Below, one piece after another: positions 9,607 to 47,590 of a stretch of 64,000 nucleotides of DNA; the first letter of the stretch is position 1, and each line of letters starts with the position of its first letter. The DNA lies in contig CALYAY010000003.1 of NCBI GenBank assembly GCA_944393695.1, positions 1 to 64,000 on the forward strand, read 5' to 3'. The notes beneath the pieces are model-generated. The model saw nothing but the letters and a program-made list of their open reading frames with translations. It was not told where the DNA came from and did not search any database. Source of the stretch: an uncultured Alphaproteobacteria bacterium (GTDB lineage: Bacteria > Pseudomonadota > Alphaproteobacteria > RF32 > CAG-239). The position numbers were made by a program, and so were the translations under genes.

Positions 9607-10629
9607 ATGATGAACAGTAACAAAGCATTATTGCTTATTTCAGCATCAGGGCTGCTGCTTATGCCCTGCGGCATATCTTTGGCAGCTTATTTCCCTCGGT
9701 CATCTCTTCCGGATGCGATTACATCTGTCTACACACACTTCACACACACCTCTCATCCGAAAGAGACGTTGTTGTCTTCTGCCTTTTATCCTCTCCCTGA
9801 AAACTCAGGGAGGGGCTGGGGAGGGTTTCACAACACCCCTCTTCCCCAACTCGCAGCGACTTGTTTTGTCACCGACACTTCGGCCTGTTCCGGCAATGAG
9901 TTTAGCGGTAACAATGCCGATGATGACGGACACGGAGCTCCCGGTGGGCCAGGCAACGGTGATGACTATGACCTCGACAATGCCGAGCGCTGCCGTCAGG
10001 AAGGATATAACCAAACCTCCTGTCCCGAAGGTCAGGAAGGTTCTAACTTCTGTCCTTACGACAGCACTTATTTCGAAAAATGTGTTTCTTCCTGTCCCTC
10101 AAATTATGTGACTTGTGAGTTGCCCTATTACGGGGTTGGTGAAGCTTGTAACGGAAAATACGCTTCTTGTGAAAAAGACACCGAACGTGCCTGTCAGGAA
10201 TTAAACCCCGATTATGTTGACGAGTGCGGCACCGGACAGCAATTAAGCGATGACAGATGTTCTTACGACAATACTTACGGCACCTGCTGCAATACTTGTG
10301 CCGGATATGACAACACCACCATCCCCGAAGGCTACATTCAGGACGGGGAAAGCTGCACCGGCTGCGACGGTCAGGAACATTACAAAATCAAACCCAATCC
10401 CTGTGACGGATATATGGACTGTGGCTCCATGGGTGGTGAGGCAGGGGCAAAGACCTGCCTGTCGGGGACAACGACCATGTATGACAATTGTAAGGTCTGT
10501 CCGAACTTAGGAGAATACACGATCTGCCCGAACTGCACGATTTGCCAGTATGAGGAGTGCTCCGGCCTGTGGTATGCCACCGGCTGTGCAACGAATTGTA
10601 CGGATTATTGTGACTTCTGCGGCGGATAG
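9607..10629 (+). CDS. Short Cys-rich secreted protein
   Basis: N-terminal signal peptide (MMNSNKALLLISASGLLLM then PCGISLAA) followed by a Ser/Thr/His linker (SVYTHFTHTSHPKETLLSS). An insert encoded by a palindromic repeat comes next (about 9788-9832), then the mature domain from CFVTDTSACSGNEF. The conserved core has the paralogue motifs SCPSNYVTC, YASCEKDTERAC and CCNTCAGYDNTTIPEGY. Only one C-terminal repeat unit is present before the end CTDYCDFCGG, so this is a short version compared with 17036 and 45437. ATGATG at 9607/9610 follows AAGGTGAT. The lectin-like gene lies 483 bp downstream in the same duplicated cassette. Probably exported and disulfide bonded; function unknown. The LMPC stretch is a poor lipobox. 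Confidence 0.82.
   Translation: MMNSNKALLLISASGLLLMPCGISLAAYFPRSSLPDAITSVYTHFTHTSHPKETLLSSAFYPLPENSGRGWGGFHNTPLPQLAATCFVTDTSACSGNEFSGNNADDDGHGAPGGPGNGDDYDLDNAERCRQEGYNQTSCPEGQEGSNFCPYDSTYFEKCVSSCPSNYVTCELPYYGVGEACNGKYASCEKDTERACQELNPDYVDECGTGQQLSDDRCSYDNTYGTCCNTCAGYDNTTIPEGYIQDGESCTGCDGQEHYKIKPNPCDGYMDCGSMGGEAGAKTCLSGTTTMYDNCKVCPNLGEYTICPNCTICQYEECSGLWYATGCATNCTDYCDFCGG
9788..9832 (+). repeat. Palindromic repeat inserted in-frame in a CDS
   Basis: CTCCCTGAAAACTCAGGGAG hairpin followed by a CTGGGGAGGG tract, translated as PLPENSGRGWGG. The same hairpin family occurs at 47332-47405 inside the 45437 gene, and related versions at 11040-11063 and 47846-47865 are intergenic. Confidence 0.75.
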
Positions 10630-10639
10630 GGGATTGCTG

Positions 10640-11075
10640 CTTATTCCCTCGCCCTTGAGGGGAGAGGGTTAGGGTGAGGGTGGAATGGAGAATGTAAGTC
10701 CGATGAATGAAGCGGCAGGTATTTGACCCCTCCGGCTCCCCTTTTGAAAGGGGAGAGGGCAATAAGGAAGATCCCTTGACGTTCAGACTGGCGCTGAACG
10801 AGGGATGACAGTTTATTTTATCACCCTCACCCGCCCTTGACAGGGCGACCTCTCCCCTCGGAGGGAGAGGTAAGGAAGGAGGAAAAGTAAACACTGTCAT
10901 ACTCCAACTTGATTGGAGTATCCAGGTCAGGTAAAGCAGCTTCTTTCCTACCTGGATCCTCGGGTCAAGCCCGAGGATGACAGAGAAGAGGGGGCCAAGG
11001 ATGACATAAAAAAAAGGGACTAAAAGAAACCCTCTCTAACTCTCCCTAAGGTTTTAGGGAGAGAATATAAGGAGA
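10640..11075. repeat. Intergenic array of palindromic repeats
   Basis: This 483-bp gap contains no gene but several repeat units: a CCCTCGCCCTTGAGGGGAGAG tract with GGTTAGGGTGAGGG (10647-10683); the R1 element (10722-10811); a CACCCTCACCCGCCCTTGAC tract (10822-10872); a composite with GTCATACTCC...GGAGTATCCAGGTCAG and CCTGGATCCTCGG...CCGAGGATGACAG (10898-10983); and a CTCCCTAAGGTTTTAGGGAG hairpin (11040-11063). The same units recur inside coding regions elsewhere in the window. Confidence 0.8.
10722..10811 (+). repeat. R1 repeat, copy 1 of 4
   Basis: About 90 bp: CCCCTCCGGCTCCCCTTTT, a GAAAGGGGAGAGGG arm, AATAAGGAA, then GATCCCTTGACGTTCAGAC facing GCGCTGAACGAGGGATGACA. It contains two nested inverted repeats and is nearly identical to copies at 41513, 47721 and 47917. 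Confidence 0.85.
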
Positions 11076-11112
11076 AAAAATATTATTAACAACTAATATA
11101 AGGAGAAAGGTT

Positions 11113-11934
11113 ATGAGAAAGATATTATTAGCGAGTGTGGGGGTAATGGTGATGAGCGCCGGGACGGGGTATGCGTCTTGTATCCCGACGCCGAGTTGTT
11201 CAAGTTTAGGCTATGAAAGTTCCTCATCATGTGAAGGCGGGATTAAGTGCCCGTTCGGAAATGCCTGGAACTGCACACTGGCAGATAAAATTACCGAAAT
11301 CATCACTGAAATCACGGAAATTAAAAAAGTAATTGAAGAAGGCGGTGTCGGAGGAGGTGGAAATACCAAAGATTGCGCCATAGGTTCAATTTTTTATTCT
11401 GATATAAGTTGTTCTTATGGTAAGGTTGTCGATGGTAAAACACCGATTGGTGTGGTTGTTTATGTTGACGGCACAGGCGGCGGTCAGGTGATGGCGCTGA
11501 AGTCAATAGGCGATTATCAATGGTCATCCGGTTATACGGATATTCCGGGGTTAAATAACTTCATCAGTGATTCCAGCGCTTCAACTGATTTGCAAAGTTG
11601 TAGTAATACGGTTCTTATTACGACTGCAGGTGATAAGAGTACTTATCCGGCAGCCTGGGCAGCCCACGAGTATAAAACCGTTGGAACCAACGCCGGTGAC
11701 TGGTGCTTACCGGCAGCCGGTATTATGTTTAGCATCAAGAAGAGCATGTCGGCGATTAACGCCGGGTTTGTATTGGCCGGTGGTGATCAGTTAGGAACAA
11801 GTTCCTACCTCTGGTCGTCTTCCGAGGGCGATAGCGCCAGCGCGTGGAACTCGACTTTCAGCGGCGACTACGGGTTGCGCAACTACTACCGTAAGACTAA
11901 CAGCTACGAGGTCCGGCCCGTCCTCGAGTTTTAG
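11113..11934 (+). CDS. Secreted C-type-lectin-like (DUF1566-type) protein with DGR-like 3' end
   Basis: The signal peptide (MRKILLASVGVMVMSAGTGYA) leads into a Cys-rich N-terminus (CIPTPSCSSLGYESSSSCEG, CPFGNAWNC), a short heptad-like segment at about 57-77 (ITEIITEITEIKKVIEEGG), and a domain with YPAAWAAHEYKT, DWCLPAAGIM (Asp196) and a C-terminus YLWSSSEGD...AW...VRPVLEF. That C-terminal pattern is typical of DUF1566/Fib_succ_major proteins, which adopt a C-type-lectin/FGE-like fold. Codon use in the last 43 codons shifts sharply (see 11803-11931). It pairs with the upstream short Cys-rich gene in a duplicated cassette; the paralogue is 41709-42536. AAGGAGAAAGGTT precedes the ATG. Probably a surface or periplasmic binding protein; the ligand is unknown. 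Confidence 0.75.
   Translation: MRKILLASVGVMVMSAGTGYASCIPTPSCSSLGYESSSSCEGGIKCPFGNAWNCTLADKITEIITEITEIKKVIEEGGVGGGGNTKDCAIGSIFYSDISCSYGKVVDGKTPIGVVVYVDGTGGGQVMALKSIGDYQWSSGYTDIPGLNNFISDSSASTDLQSCSNTVLITTAGDKSTYPAAWAAHEYKTVGTNAGDWCLPAAGIMFSIKKSMSAINAGFVLAGGDQLGTSSYLWSSSEGDSASAWNSTFSGDYGLRNYYRKTNSYEVRPVLEF
11803..11931 (+). other. Candidate DGR variable region (VR-like)
   Basis: 37 of 43 codons end in G or C and none in A, against 25 of 45 in the preceding stretch. The segment is rich in NNC codons (AGC, GGC, GAC, TAC, AAC, CGC) at loop positions, as expected when AAC codons of a template repeat are adenine-mutagenised. It ends in the GC-rich GTCCGGCCCGTCCTCGAG, where an IMH-like sequence would lie, followed by a hairpin. 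No template repeat or reverse transcriptase is in the window, so this is inference. Confidence 0.45.
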
Positions 11935-17035: not shown

Positions 17036-19048
17036 ATGATGAAATTATCCAAAGCATTAATGCTGTCGGTTTCCGGACTGATTATTACGTCCGGCGGTAG
17101 TTCCGCTTCAATTCATAATCTAACATCTCTCAACTCTCCGGGTGCAGTTACATTTGTCCACACACCTTATACACACACCTCTCATCCGGAGGAAGTGTTG
17201 TTGTCTTCTCTTGAAAAATTCAATAAGGATGATTTATTGATCACCCTCACCCGGAGCTTACGCTCCGACCTCTCCCCTCAAGGGCGAGGTGGAAAAGGGG
17301 CTTTGTCATCCTCGGACTTGATCCGAGGATCCAGGTGGAATGAAGAAGCAAATTTATCTGACCTAGATACTCCAATCAAGTTGGAGTATGACCGGTCAAC
17401 CTCTCCCTTGAGGGGAGAGGGTCAGGGTGAGGGTGATAAAAATAACCTCATCCAACTCGCAGCCACCTGTTTTGTAACCGATACTTCGGCCTGTTCGGGG
17501 AATGAATTTGCCGGCAACAATGCCGATGATGACGGGCATGGGGCTCCCGGCGGGCCGAGCGACGGTGATGACTATGATTTGGATAACGAAGAACGCTGCA
17601 ACAAAGAGGGGTATTATCTGACCTCATGTCCGGACGGACAAGAGGGGGCGGGATTTTGTCCTTATGACAGCAATTATTTCGAAAAATGCGTTTCCTCCTG
17701 CCCCTCAAATTATGTGACTTGCGAGAAACCCTATTACGGAGTTGGAGAAGCTTGCGACGAAAAATATGCCTCTTGCGAAAAAGACACCGAGCGTGCCTGT
17801 CAGGAATTAAACCCCGGTTATATCGATAAATGCGGCACGGGCCAACAGCTGAGCGACGACCGTTGCTCATATGACAGCTCTTATGGTACTTGCTGCAACA
17901 CCTGCGCCGGGTATGACACCACCAGCATTCCGGATGGCTATGTTCAGGACGGCGAAGCCTGCACCGGCTGCGACGGACAGGAACATTACAAGATAAAACC
18001 TAATCCCTGTGACGGGTTTATGGACTGCGGCAGCATGGGTGGGGAAGCCGGGGCGAAGACCTGCCTCTCAGGCACTACCACCAAGTATGACAACTGCAAG
18101 GCCTGTCCTAATCTCGGCACCCTCACCAGCTGCCCAAGTCCTTACACCTGCACTTATGAAGAATGCTCCGGCCTCTGGTATAAAACAGGTTGTCAATCCG
18201 GGTACGACTGGGACAAAAACGCCCAAACCTGTACGCAACAATGTAACAACGAGTGTACTCTCTCTAGCTGCCCCTCGCCTTTCACCTGCCGTTATGAGGA
18301 CTGCTCTGGAAAATACTGCAAAACCGGCTGTCAGTCCGGTTATGATTGGGATGCCGGCTCTCAGACTTGTACCGAACAATGTGATTATGATTGTAACTTA
18401 GATTCTTGTCCGGATAATGCTGAATGTTATTATGAAAGTTGTTCCGGAAAATATTGTTTTGATAACTGTAATGAGAGCTATGAATATTCAAACGGACAAT
18501 GTATTTGTCCTAATCAAGGGACGCTTTCTTCTTATCAAGATTGTCCTTTCGGCCATGCATGCAGACTTGAACAATGTTCCGGCAAATATGTTGACCCGGG
18601 CGTCTGTGATGAGGAAAACGGCTTTGAATTTAACAACAGCCTAAACGGATGTCAATGCACCGATGAACCAAAATATCATCATGCACGTTACTTCATATAC
18701 GGCGTTGAAGATTGCGACGGTTTCTATAAAGAAAGTTACAGAGGATGCGGAAAAACACTTTATGCCTGCGCAGAAGGAAAATCTGCTCATGCTGAGACTG
18801 GTAAATATTGTGAATTTATAGAAAGCAGAAATCTATATTGGATTCAATATGAAAATAACTATTATCATGCCTGCGTCAATGAAAATAATCAGGTAATAGC
18901 TACTACCGGGGGAGAATATTGTGAATTTTCCGGATACACTTCTGATCAGTATAAAACATTGGAAGAATGTGAAGAAGCTCTTGCAACAGCTCCGGATCCA
19001 GCCATCGGCGGATTACGGCAATGCGGAGAACCGTGTAAAGGAGATTAA
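17036..19048 (+). CDS. Long Cys-rich secreted repeat protein with in-frame palindromic repeats
   Basis: Signal peptide MMKLSKALMLSVSGLIITSG, the linker VHTPYTHTSHPEEVLLSS, then about 80 residues encoded by palindromic repeats (TLTRSLRSDLSPQGRGGKG ... SPLRGEGQGEG). The mature domain starts at CFVTDTSACSGNEF. The conserved core is followed by at least three units of the CPSPYTCTYEECSGLWYKTG / CQSGYDW type, and a longer unique C-terminus without clear repeats (about residues 510-670) ending AIGGLRQCGEPCKGD. At 670 residues it is much longer than the 340-346 residue paralogues. AGGTG lies just upstream of ATGATG. Likely a surface or outer-membrane-associated disulfide-rich protein; function unknown. 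Confidence 0.82.
   Translation: MMKLSKALMLSVSGLIITSGGSSASIHNLTSLNSPGAVTFVHTPYTHTSHPEEVLLSSLEKFNKDDLLITLTRSLRSDLSPQGRGGKGALSSSDLIRGSRWNEEANLSDLDTPIKLEYDRSTSPLRGEGQGEGDKNNLIQLAATCFVTDTSACSGNEFAGNNADDDGHGAPGGPSDGDDYDLDNEERCNKEGYYLTSCPDGQEGAGFCPYDSNYFEKCVSSCPSNYVTCEKPYYGVGEACDEKYASCEKDTERACQELNPGYIDKCGTGQQLSDDRCSYDSSYGTCCNTCAGYDTTSIPDGYVQDGEACTGCDGQEHYKIKPNPCDGFMDCGSMGGEAGAKTCLSGTTTKYDNCKACPNLGTLTSCPSPYTCTYEECSGLWYKTGCQSGYDWDKNAQTCTQQCNNECTLSSCPSPFTCRYEDCSGKYCKTGCQSGYDWDAGSQTCTEQCDYDCNLDSCPDNAECYYESCSGKYCFDNCNESYEYSNGQCICPNQGTLSSYQDCPFGHACRLEQCSGKYVDPGVCDEENGFEFNNSLNGCQCTDEPKYHHARYFIYGVEDCDGFYKESYRGCGKTLYACAEGKSAHAETGKYCEFIESRNLYWIQYENNYYHACVNENNQVIATTGGEYCEFSGYTSDQYKTLEECEEALATAPDPAIGGLRQCGEPCKGD
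17241..17445 (+). repeat. Composite palindromic repeats inside a CDS
   Basis: Ordered units: CACCCTCACCCGGAGCTTAC facing GCTCCGACCTCTCCCCTCAA (17243-17291); TCATCCTCGGACTTGATCCG with AGGATCCAGG (17308-17337); GACCTAGATACTCCAATCAA with GTTGGAGTATGAC (17360-17392); and CCTCTCCCTTGAGGGGAGAG with GGTCAGGGTGAGGG (17398-17436). All stay in the host reading frame. Confidence 0.8.
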
Positions 19049-40381: not shown

Positions 40382-41422
40382 ATGATGAACAGTAACAAAG
40401 CATTATTGCTTATTTCAGCATCAGGGTTGCTGCTTATGCCCTGCGGCATATCTTTGGCGGCTTATTCCACTCAGTCATCTCTTCCGGATGCGATTACATC
40501 TGTCTACACACACTTCACACACACCTCTCATCCGGAGGAAGTGTTGTTGTCTTCATCTGAAGATTTTAATTTTGTCACCCTCACCCGGAGCTTACGCTCC
40601 GACCTCTCCCCTCAAGGGCGAGGTAAAAAAGATAAAATAAAAACAGCCGCCACCTGTTTTGTAACCGACACTTCGGCTTGTTCGGGGAATGAATTTTCCG
40701 GCAATAATGCTGATGATGACGGGCATGGGGCTCCCGGCGGGCCGGGAGACGGCGATGACTATGACCTCGACAATGCCGAGCGCTGCAATAAAGAGGGCTA
40801 TTATCTGACTTCATGCCCGGACGGACAAGAGGGTTCGGGTTTCTGCCCCTATGACAGCACTTATTTCGAAGAATGTGTTTCTTCCTGCCCCTCAAATTAT
40901 GTGACCTGTGAAGTCCCTTACTATGGTGTGGGAGAAGCTTGTGACGGCAAATATGCCTCATGTGAAAAAGACACCGAGCGCGCCTGTCAGGAGCTTAATC
41001 CCGGTTATGTTAATGAATGCGGCACCGGCCAACAATTAAGCGATGACCGCTGTTCTTACGACAATACTTACGGCACCTGCTGCAACACCTGTGCCGGCTA
41101 TGACAACACCACTATTCCCGAGGGCTATGTGCAAGACGGCGAGGCCTGTACCGGTTGTGACGGACAGGAACATTACAAGATTAAGCCCAATCCGTGTGAC
41201 GGTTTTATGGATTGTGGCAGCATGGGCGGTGAGGCCGGCGCAAAGACCTGCCTCTCGGGGACAACGACCATGTATGACAATTGTAAGGCCTGTCCGAACT
41301 TGGGAGAATATACCACCTGTCCGAGCTGTACCATATGTCAGTATGAGGAATGTTCGGGTCTGTGGTATGCCACCGGATGTGCGACGAATTGTACAGATTA
41401 TTGTGACTTCTGCGGCGGATAG
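40382..41422 (+). CDS. Short Cys-rich secreted protein
   Basis: Close paralogue of 9607-10629. Signal peptide MMNSNKALLLISASGLLLM then PCGISLAA, linker SVYTHFTHTSHPEEVLLSS, an insert from a palindromic repeat (TLTRSLRSDLSPQGRG), then the mature domain from CFVTDTSACSGNEF to CTDYCDFCGG. At 346 residues it has the conserved core and one terminal repeat unit. The insert differs from that of its cassette partner at 9607 but is the same type as in 17036. The lectin-like gene lies 286 bp downstream. Function unknown; likely exported and disulfide bonded. Confidence 0.82.
   Translation: MMNSNKALLLISASGLLLMPCGISLAAYSTQSSLPDAITSVYTHFTHTSHPEEVLLSSSEDFNFVTLTRSLRSDLSPQGRGKKDKIKTAATCFVTDTSACSGNEFSGNNADDDGHGAPGGPGDGDDYDLDNAERCNKEGYYLTSCPDGQEGSGFCPYDSTYFEECVSSCPSNYVTCEVPYYGVGEACDGKYASCEKDTERACQELNPGYVNECGTGQQLSDDRCSYDNTYGTCCNTCAGYDNTTIPEGYVQDGEACTGCDGQEHYKIKPNPCDGFMDCGSMGGEAGAKTCLSGTTTMYDNCKACPNLGEYTTCPSCTICQYEECSGLWYATGCATNCTDYCDFCGG
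40575..40626 (+). repeat. Palindromic repeat inserted in-frame in a CDS
   Basis: CACCCTCACCCGGAGCTTAC facing GCTCCGACCTCTCCCCTCAA, then GGGCGAGGT. It matches 17243-17291 almost base for base and is read in the same frame, giving TRSLRSDLSPQGRG in both proteins. Confidence 0.8.
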
Positions 41423-41427
41423 GGGAT

Positions 41428-41660
41428 TGCTGCTTATTCCCTCGCCCTTGAGGGGAGAGGGTTAGGGTGAGGGTGGAATGGAGAATGTAAGTCCGATGAA
41501 TGAAGCGGCAGGTATTTGACCCCTCCGGCTCCCCTTTTGAAAGGGGAGAGGGCAATAAGGAAGATCCCTTGACGTTCAGGCTGGCGCTGAACGAGGGATG
41601 ACATAGTCACCCTCACCCGCCCTTGGCAGGGCGACCTCTCCCCTCAAGGGAGAGGTAAAA
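41428..41660. repeat. Intergenic array of palindromic repeats
   Basis: The gap 41423-41708 has no gene. It contains the CCCTCGCCCTTGAGGGGAGAG unit (41438-41476), R1 copy 2, and a CACCCTCACCCGCCCTTGGC unit (41608-41657). The first half looks identical to the corresponding region at 10630. Confidence 0.8.
41513..41603 (+). repeat. R1 repeat, copy 2 of 4
   Basis: Same structure as 10722-10811, with a G/A difference in the TTCAGRCTGG segment and a changed 3' end (GATGACATAG). Confidence 0.85.
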
Positions 41661-41708
41661 AGGGGAGAGATAAATATTATTAACAACTAATATAAAAGGA
41701 GAAAGGTT

Positions 41709-42536
41709 ATGAAAAAGATATTATTGGCAAGTGCAGGGGTAATGGTGATGAGTGCGGGGACGGGATATGCTGCCTGTATCCCGACGCCGGATTGTGCAAG
41801 CCTGGGGTATGAAAGCTCGTCATCCTGTGAAGGCGGAATTAAGTGCCCCTTCGGCAATGCCTGGAACTGCACCGTCATAAACAAAGTTAACGAAATCACC
41901 AACAAAGTGACTGAACTTGAAAAAGTGATTGAAGAAGGCGGCGGTGATACTTCAAACTGTATTTTAGGATCTATTTTTTATTCCGATCACACATGTTCAT
42001 ATGGCGCTGTATTGCCGACCAAAACCCCGATTGGTGTTGTGGTTTATGTTGACGGTCAGGGACACGGGCAAGTGATGGCTTTGAATGGTATCGGTAGTTA
42101 TATTTGGAGCAGAAAACATACGAATATTTCGACACTTCAGGATTTTGCATCAGATTCAGCTGCGTCTCAAGATTTGGCAAGTTGCGAGAATACAGAAAAG
42201 ATTATTGCAGAAGGTGATAAGGACCAGTACCCTGCTGCCTGGGCTGTTCACGAGTATAAAACCGAAGGTACTAATGCAGGCGACTGGTGCCTGCCGGCAG
42301 CCGGTATTATGACGAGTATAAATAATGGGATGGAATTAATTAATATCGGATATAGTTTAGTTAAAGGTACTAAAATAGAAACAAGTTCTTCTTATTGGAC
42401 GTCTTCCGAGTACAACGGCAATCGTGTATGGACTTCGGCATTTCTTTCCGACTACGGGGTAAATATCAACTTTAGCAATAGTTACGAGAACACTAAGGAG
42501 CAAGACTACGATGTCCGACCCGTTTTAGAATTCTGA
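41709..42536 (+). CDS. Secreted C-type-lectin-like (DUF1566-type) protein
   Basis: Paralogue of 11113-11934. Signal peptide MKKILLASAGVMVMSAGTGYA, N-terminal CIPTPDCASLGYESSSSCEG and CPFGNAWNC, a heptad-like segment NKVNEITNKVTELEKVIEEGG, then the domain with YPAAWAVHEYKT, DWCLPAAGIM (Asp192) and C-terminus SYWTSSEYNGNRVW...YDVRPVLEF. The last loop is several codons longer than in 11113. Codon use here is ordinary (26 of 48 final codons end in G or C), unlike the paralogue. Likely exported binding protein of the lectin-like fold; ligand unknown. Confidence 0.75.
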   Translation: MKKILLASAGVMVMSAGTGYAACIPTPDCASLGYESSSSCEGGIKCPFGNAWNCTVINKVNEITNKVTELEKVIEEGGGDTSNCILGSIFYSDHTCSYGAVLPTKTPIGVVVYVDGQGHGQVMALNGIGSYIWSRKHTNISTLQDFASDSAASQDLASCENTEKIIAEGDKDQYPAAWAVHEYKTEGTNAGDWCLPAAGIMTSINNGMELINIGYSLVKGTKIETSSSYWTSSEYNGNRVWTSAFLSDYGVNINFSNSYENTKEQDYDVRPVLEF

Positions 42537-45436: not shown

Positions 45437-47590
45437 TTATCGACAACGTTCTCCTTTGCAATGAAATTCTTCGATAATCAGATTATTAGAGATATGGTTA
45501 TCCGGGTTTCCTCCCAAGTCAATTCCGCAGCCATCCATACAGACAACAGAATCTTCTTCCTGGCCGGTTGCCATGTTGAATGAACCAAATACATGCTGTC
45601 CTCCAAAACCTTCGCTGTTTGGTTTTTCATAGCTTGTATCACTAGAGCGGTAAGGATAATCCGTTGAAATTGTCTGATGTCTTGTTGCCGATAAAGCGGC
45701 ATTAATTTTTGAAAGATTATTATATATTGTCCGATACAGCGACTGAGGATGAAGAATTATATCCTGAGCATCGCAACGACATCTTATTCCAGTTTTCACT
45801 CCGGTGACCACCGTCAGGTCATAGGAACAATTTTTCTTGTCAATATTTGTGACGTCGACTATTGCACCTTTGGATTCCAGGGGAGCTCCTACTTGATGTT
45901 GATCCAGCAAACAAGCGCTGCACTTATACCGTGTCTGATAACATTCTTCGGCCGATCCGGATTCAGAATCAGAAGTACCGTAAGCGCAATCAGACGGGTC
46001 ATATGTCCAGCCTTCGGGTAGTTGTTTGTTCTGGCAAAGGTTGCATGCCCCGTCAAACCAACTGTATCCGCTTGAGCAAGAACATTCTTCATATTTGCCG
46101 TTACATGATTTTCCGCTGGGCGATTCATGACTTCCCGTACAGCTGTATGAATAGTAACTCGGGTCACAGACGCAGGACGATCCGTCCCACATATTGCCAT
46201 ATCCGCAGTCAATTTCGCAGCGGCTGCCGGTCCATGAGTAATTGCCGGAACAATAACAACGGGTGTATTTTCCGTTGCATGAGCTTCCATATCCGCCGGC
46301 GTAACCGGTGCCGGAACAGGTATAGCGATAATTACTGGGACAAGGAGATGTGCAGGTCTTAGTACTTCCGTTCCAGTCGTAGCCGGACTGGCAGCCGGAT
46401 TTATAGTATCTGCCTGAACATTCCTCATAAGTGCAAGTATAGGGGCTGGGGCAGCTGGTGAGGGTGCCTTTGTTAGGGCAGGGTTTGCAGTTGTCATACT
46501 TGGTGGTGGTACCCGACAGGCAGGTTGTGGCGCCGGTATCGGGGCCCATGGAGCCGCAGTCCAGGAAGCCGTCGCAGGGATTGGGTTTGATTTTATATTT
46601 TGGCTGACCGTTACAATCCACACAGGCTTCGCCGTCTTGAACATAGCCGTCGGGAATGGTGGTGTTGTCATAACCGGCGCAGGTGTTACAGCAGGTGCCG
46701 TAAGAACTGTCGTATGAGCAACGGTCGGAACTAAGCTGTTGTCCCGCGCCGCAGGTATTTGTATAGTTTGGATTTAATTCTTTGCAGGCGCGCTGAGTAT
46801 CTTTTTCACAAGAAGCATATTTATTGCCACAGGCGGTACCTATGCCGTAATACGGCGGCGTACAGGTTTTGTAACCGTCGGGGCAGACGCATTTTTCGAA
46901 ATAGTTGCTGTCATAAAGGCAGAAGTTTTCGGCTGTTTCGCCCGGCAGACAGGAGGTTTTGTTATAGCCTTCTTTTTTGCAGCGTTCGGCATTGTCAAGC
47001 TCGTAGTCATCCTGATTTCCGTTGTCGGCATCATTGCCGCCTGGCGCCCCATGTCCGTTATCTTCTCCTTCCGCGTTGGCAAACCTGTTCCCCGAACAGT
47101 CGTTGGTGTCAGTGACGAAACACACAGAGGCGAGTTGGATGAGTTTATTCTCACCCTGTTTTTCAGAGATTAACTTGTCATCCTCGGACCTGATCCGAGG
47201 ATCCAGGTTGAAAGAATCAGCTGTTTTGTCTGACCTGGATACTCCGGTTAAGCCGGAGTATGACTGGTTAACCTCGCCCTTGAGGGGAGAGGTCGCCCTG
47301 TTAAGGGCGGGTGAGGGTGGTATTGTGAAACCCTCCCTTGCCCTCCCTGAGTTTTCAGGGAGGGAATAGAATAGAGAGTTCCCTAAGGCTTTAGGGAGGG
47401 GATAAAAGGCAGAAGACAACAACATCTCTTTCGGATGAGAGGTGTATGTGAAGTGTGTGTTATAGACAGATGTAATCGCATCCGGAAGAGTTGGCAGAGG
47501 CAAAATATTTGCCTGAGCGTTGGGGCCGCAGGACATAATTACCAATCCCGAAGCCGACATTAACCATAAGGTTTTTCTTAGTCTCATCAT
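45437..47590 (-). CDS. Long Cys-rich secreted repeat protein with in-frame palindromic repeats
   Basis: 717 residues, the longest family member here. Signal peptide MMRLRKTLWLMSASGLVIMS then CGPNAQA; VIMSC is closer to a lipobox than in the paralogues, so a lipoprotein is possible. The linker YNTHFTYTSHPKEMLLSS is followed by about 95 residues read through palindromic repeats, then the mature domain from CFVTDTNDCSGNRF with the usual core. Two to three YTCTYEECSGRYYKSG / CQSGYDW units follow, then a distinct C-terminal half with CDPSYYSYSCTGSHESPSG-type segments and a non-repeat tail ending HCKGERCR. Same promoter and leader as the others. Function unknown. Confidence 0.82.
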   Translation of the reverse strand: MMRLRKTLWLMSASGLVIMSCGPNAQANILPLPTLPDAITSVYNTHFTYTSHPKEMLLSSAFYPLPKALGNSLFYSLPENSGRAREGFTIPPSPALNRATSPLKGEVNQSYSGLTGVSRSDKTADSFNLDPRIRSEDDKLISEKQGENKLIQLASVCFVTDTNDCSGNRFANAEGEDNGHGAPGGNDADNGNQDDYELDNAERCKKEGYNKTSCLPGETAENFCLYDSNYFEKCVCPDGYKTCTPPYYGIGTACGNKYASCEKDTQRACKELNPNYTNTCGAGQQLSSDRCSYDSSYGTCCNTCAGYDNTTIPDGYVQDGEACVDCNGQPKYKIKPNPCDGFLDCGSMGPDTGATTCLSGTTTKYDNCKPCPNKGTLTSCPSPYTCTYEECSGRYYKSGCQSGYDWNGSTKTCTSPCPSNYRYTCSGTGYAGGYGSSCNGKYTRCYCSGNYSWTGSRCEIDCGYGNMWDGSSCVCDPSYYSYSCTGSHESPSGKSCNGKYEECSCSSGYSWFDGACNLCQNKQLPEGWTYDPSDCAYGTSDSESGSAEECYQTRYKCSACLLDQHQVGAPLESKGAIVDVTNIDKKNCSYDLTVVTGVKTGIRCRCDAQDIILHPQSLYRTIYNNLSKINAALSATRHQTISTDYPYRSSDTSYEKPNSEGFGGQHVFGSFNMATGQEEDSVVCMDGCGIDLGGNPDNHISNNLIIEEFHCKGERCR
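47170..47405 (-). repeat. Composite palindromic repeats inside a CDS
   Basis: + strand order: TCATCCTCGGACCTGATCCG with AGGATCCAGG (47178-47208); GACCTGGATACTCCGGTTAA facing GCCGGAGTATGAC (47229-47262); CCTCGCCCTTGAGGGGAGAG with GTCGCCC...GGGCGGGTGAGGG (47270-47318); and two CCTCCCTGAGTTTTCAGGGA-type hairpins (47332-47405). The insert lies between the signal-peptide linker and CFVTDT, in frame. Confidence 0.8.

Follow-up and report, generated by a model that had tools for sequence, protein, structure and literature searches.

A lectin-like gene in an alphaproteobacterial draft genome as a very probable remote target of a diversity-generating retroelement

Results

A lectin-like gene with an NNC-rich 3' end

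The window analyzed here is a stretch of 64,000 nucleotides on contig C3 of a 1.75 Mb genome in 38 contigs, a draft that is probably a MAG. The gene starting at 11113 (Table 1) encodes a protein of 273 aa, in which a Sec-type signal sequence is followed by a Cys-rich N-terminal segment, a short coiled-coil/Gly linker and a C-type-lectin-like (Lcl_C/DUF1566) domain; signal sequence and linker were called by reading the sequence. Lcl_C is the current name of the family formerly called DUF1566. An earlier reading of the DNA (hereafter the sequence-only reading) had labeled the protein as DUF1566-type and C-type-lectin-like, and of this label the fold stood, whereas the Pfam score did not reach the gathering cut-off: the match to Lcl_C (PF07603) is weak with E=0.0012 and 19.5 bits versus a cut-off of 34.9. 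An AlphaFold model of residues 86-273, based on a 19-sequence alignment, reached a mean pLDDT of 93.3 and a pTM of 0.90, compared with a pLDDT of only 30 for a single-sequence structure prediction of the target. Using Foldseek, this model matched the C-terminal domain of Legionella Lcl in the PDB (8q4e, E=1.4e-4) as well as a fimbrial protein of Bacteroides (4eps, E=9.8e-6). A phmmer search of the target protein against the PDB gave no match. The 8q4e match of the model supports kinship of the predicted fold with Lcl, despite the sub-cut-off Pfam score.

A recount of the codon usage at the 3' end gave figures identical to those of the sequence-only reading: 37 of the 43 codons at 11803-11931 end in G or C and none in A, versus 25 of 45 immediately before. 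The GC content of this tail is 0.59 versus about 0.45.

Table 1. Features of the window and of the retroelement core; positions refer to the window unless contig C17 is given.
Feature	Position	Strand	Remarks
Cys-rich partner protein gene	9607..10629	+	homologues precede or are fused to 48/56 family domains
20-nt leader element ATATTATTAACAACTAATAT	11080..11099	+	invariant; genome-wide exact-copy search
Variable protein gene, putative remote DGR target	11113..11934	+	273 aa; Pfam, model, Foldseek
Variable region (VR)	11810..11924	+	compared with the C17 TR in the text
IMH-like 3' end GTCCGGCCCGTCCT	11911..11924	+	same in TR and VR
8-bp inverted repeat, 11-nt loop, 3' of stop codon	11943..11969	+	terminator-like
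Cys-rich partner homologue	40382..41419	+	86% identity with 9607-10626; located 5' of the second family member
20-nt leader before the second family member	41674..41693	+	exact copy
Second family member	41709..42536	+	tail drifted from TR: 19/71 non-A, 16/39 A
Avd	C17:8199-8567	minus	122 aa; bAvd PF22296
TR	C17:7960-8073	minus	between Avd and RT
RT	C17:6631-7947	minus	438 aa; RVT_1

Reverse transcriptase, Avd and template on another contig

A profile search of the whole genome identified a single RVT_1 protein, which is located on C17, and none in the window, so that the lack of a local reverse transcriptase (RT) noted before was borne out. The RT contains the motifs IGNLTSQ and YVDD, and its closest solved relative is 8ub7 (E=1.5e-31), which we take to be the RT complex of the BPP-1 diversity-generating retroelement (DGR). 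The order on the core strand is Avd, TR and RT. The 122-aa gene matches bAvd PF22296 with E=4.9e-16, above the Pfam cut-off, and the NCBIfam Avd model with E=1.6e-17, yet under the NCBIfam cut-off. Both RT and Avd have open reading frames. A genome-wide search for a DGR-type RT therefore ended on C17, where Avd and TR adjoin the RT gene. In principle, C17 could be misbinned from another organism, although the contig itself bears a paralogue of the target family.

The near-identical template that the sequence-only reading had envisaged is the C17 TR. An ungapped comparison over 114 bases (11811-11924) revealed no mismatch at the 75 non-adenine positions of the TR and 17 mismatches at its 39 adenines, i.e., 17 of 17 differences fall on template adenines (hypergeometric p=6.9e-10). 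As the adenines of the TR occupy codon positions 1 and 2 only, the tail is rich in NNC codons, just as had been proposed from mutated AAC codons of a template. The variable region does lie in the interval 11803-11931 pointed out before; the exact bounds changed, as the VR proper is slightly shorter and its 3' end is 7 bases short of the stop codon. The invariant-looking GC-rich end turned out to be identical in TR and VR, and past GTCCGGCCCGTCCT the homology ends, with AGCTTT in the TR and CGAGTT in the VR. A GC-rich stretch followed by divergence is the pattern expected of an IMH end, and we consider it IMH-like. In the VR of contig C15 (L042, C15:1696-1818) the match to the TR runs a few bases past the IMH end (CCTAGCTTTTT); most other VRs are without this extension, and the VRs of the congener G006 have that ending.

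The hairpin just after the stop codon, which had been listed as a further DGR feature, exists, but its connection to the DGR was not supported. We did not find a conserved hairpin or cruciform of the BPP-1 type behind the VRs: position and sequence vary, and none was found at several of the freshest VRs, and we therefore rejected the hairpin as a DGR cruciform. A BPP-1-type hairpin or cruciform after the VR is not universal among DGRs, and the inverted repeat in the window is probably an ordinary terminator.

The target family in the genome

Searching the genome for the family yielded 65 protein matches; after merging, these correspond to about 56 domains of the C-type-lectin-like kind. Ten VRs, including that of the window, show 0-3 non-A mismatches to the TR with adenine-bias p-values from 8e-6 to 1e-10, and none of these ten is located on C17. 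The VRs of the window, C15 and C32 have 0/75 non-A changes, yet 16-17 adenine differences from the TR. A weaker adenine bias is retained in about 18 further targets, so that about 28 are traceable in total, and in many paralogues drift has introduced 7-20+ non-A changes. The bias reached p<1e-4 in sixteen VRs and p<0.05 in 28 of the 29 best-aligned VRs; the window VR and the C15 VR were each aligned to the TR without gaps, and in the gapped alignments the scoring favors adenine mismatches, so that the p-values of drifted VRs are indicative only. A search of the whole genome with a 5' pattern hit 18 places, the TR among them. In the 8 kb around the core no TR-like stretch besides the TR itself was present, and the tail of the family domain nearest to the core (C17:15529) is not TR-like. 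With no local target found, the sequence points to an all-remote layout of this DGR core. A scan of IMG/VR with the VR/TR pattern gave no match, and therefore there is no sign of a viral copy in IMG/VR. The family profile also matches variable proteins adjoining related DGR RTs in Bacteroidota.

A related RT is present in 7 of 10 congener genomes and the target family in all eleven genomes. In congener G006, two TRs (L152 1008-1114 and 1282-1391) accompany a single RT, and the two sets of VRs of this genome sort between the TRs with the same adenine bias; one VR lies near the RT. Two TRs beside one RT were also observed in congeners at L146 and L147/L079.

VRs that otherwise match the TR almost perfectly vary in length by -3, +3, +6, +9, +21, +24 and +33 nt. 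These differences are in frame and placed at or beside the TR run (AAC)4 AAT AAG. In the ten fresh VRs this tract almost always reads (NNC)n NNT AAG, with 70 C, 11 T, 10 G and 1 A as third bases, and therefore the extra codons look like adenine-mutated AAC, AAT or AGC. In the G006 VR at L246 a 15-nt template unit (AAT AAG AAT AAC AAC) is present twice with partly different substitutions, which suggests that the template was copied twice.

Partner genes, leader element and repeats

The pairing with Cys-rich genes (Table 1) means that a Cys-rich homologue lies upstream on the same strand or in the same reading frame; several exceptions are contig starts or second tandem copies. About fourteen family domains reside within open frames of 590-930 aa, which appear to join the Cys-rich and the lectin parts and therefore suggest that the Cys-rich protein and the variable lectin work together. 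The pairing is repeated in G006. Members of the secreted-type Cys-rich family are found in the window at 9607-10629, 17036-19048, 40382-41419, 46385-47590 and 1-780, usually immediately upstream of, or fused to, variable lectin domains, and the two members scanned against Pfam had no match.

The leader ATATTATTAAYAACTAATAT occurs in 28 exact copies in the genome, each closely upstream of a family gene, and is near-absent in congeners. It contains 6-bp dyad arms (ATATTA...TAATAT) and is invariant although the family proteins downstream are only about 60-85% identical. It may represent an operator or an RNA element of the 5' leader. An Rfam search returned sub-threshold matches only. Furthermore, a dispersed palindromic repeat of the CCTCTCCCTTGAGGGG type was noticed in the window at 10647, 17269-17420, 40603, 41440-41655 and 47272. 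It sits near variable-protein genes, with an apparent in-frame read-through within ORF 17036-19048, and may belong to the MITE-like or palindromic repeat elements.

Discussion

Taken together, we are highly confident that 11810-11924 is the VR of a remote (trans) target of the DGR on C17. The RT, the Avd gene, the TR and the adenine-only mismatches support the initial idea of a remote target without a local retroelement. By analogy with BPP-1, from which the chemistry is taken, the RT-Avd complex would copy the TR RNA and misincorporate opposite adenines, and any paralogue with a preserved GC-rich IMH end and sufficient homology would then have its corresponding 3' end replaced by the cDNA. 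This would yield a C-type-lectin-like protein, secreted or at the surface, with a randomized face that presumably binds a ligand. Signal sequence, Cys-rich segment and variable lectin-like tip suggest such secreted or surface ligand-binding proteins.

Two explanations for the unusual tail dispense with a DGR, and we see virtually no chance for either of them. Gene conversion between paralogues could draw on the roughly 56 related domains of this genome, but it does not predict that mismatches are limited to the adenines of a non-coding repeat beside an RT and an Avd gene, and this TR-VR pattern refutes it. A shift in codon usage or a horizontally acquired tail unrelated to DGRs would fit the elevated GC content; it is equally refuted, as the tail matches the C17 TR base for base and a template rich in AAC, AGC and GAC accounts for the GC-ending codons. 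The core, the adenine bias between TR and VR and the paralogue family are directly readable from the DNA, the lectin-like domain is modeled with confidence, and we infer that diversification continues today. It is also conceivable, but unlikely, that the DGR made the VR formerly and is now inactive, so that the variation is frozen. The strongly drifted paralogues would be in line with such a fossil, whereas the three VRs with adenine changes exclusively, the open frames of RT and Avd and the retention of the RT in most congeners argue against it.

Beyond the remote-target assignment, we tentatively propose, with a little less than even confidence, that this DGR has no local target and serves solely to diversify, throughout the genome, a duplicated surface module of two genes, Cys-rich protein and variable lectin, under a shared leader, and that its RT slips on the template's AAC run and thereby varies loop length as well as residues. 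Slippage of a DGR RT in 3-nt steps on AAC repeats, giving in-frame indels, has already been proposed and is discussed in a study that cites earlier work (PMC12875486); the present data add natural length differences of up to +33 nt among the VRs of one genome. Possibly, the VR length differences go back to earlier changes in TR length instead of slippage.

DGRs with remote or with multiple targets have been described before. Remote targets have been on record since DiGReF (PMC3521204), and the TvpA DGR of Treponema denticola (Le Coq and Ghosh, 2011) serves up to seven targets with one TR (PMC4891356). As in the present genome, T. denticola has one RT, one TR and remote C-type-lectin paralogues chromosome-wide together with drifted extra copies, but its core cassette includes a target (PMC4891356), and here the targets are more numerous (10 near-perfect and about 28 traceable ones), the VRs vary in length and a Cys-rich partner gene accompanies the targets. 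The Thiohalocapsa PB-PSB1 DGRs have 15 targets at nine loci in four classes (PMC10907252), whereas here many targets share one TR. In cyanobacteria, 76 remote CLec targets were recognized via TR homology, and these variable proteins are mostly predicted to be cytosolic (PMC7517822), in contrast to the signal-sequence proteins with a Cys-rich partner described here. According to MetaCSST, some TRs have twelve or more VR copies, although the cited example is atypical and has no adenine bias (PMC6642488). The system resembles the DGR of Bordetella phage BPP-1 (RT/Avd/TR/Mtd) in its 8ub7-related RT, the Avd, the adenine-specific differences and the GC-rich IMH-like end, and differs in being cellular, with a target in trans, no consistent cruciform and an Lcl_C-type rather than Mtd target. 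In the literature searched we found no description of this DGR system, which is unusual in its all-remote layout, in how many clean targets share one TR, in the variable length of its VRs and in the pairing of its target genes with Cys-rich genes.

A signal within a window, the NNC-rich 3' end of a lectin gene, can therefore reveal a DGR target far from its machinery; one large metagenome survey states that its method would miss targets of this class (PMC8144416). The small genome appears to hold an unusually large repertoire of self-randomizing proteins, and with 1.75 Mb and about 56 paralogous domains, of which many can be traced to one template, it lends itself to studying how a DGR chooses its targets, how targets decay and whether template slippage adds length diversity.
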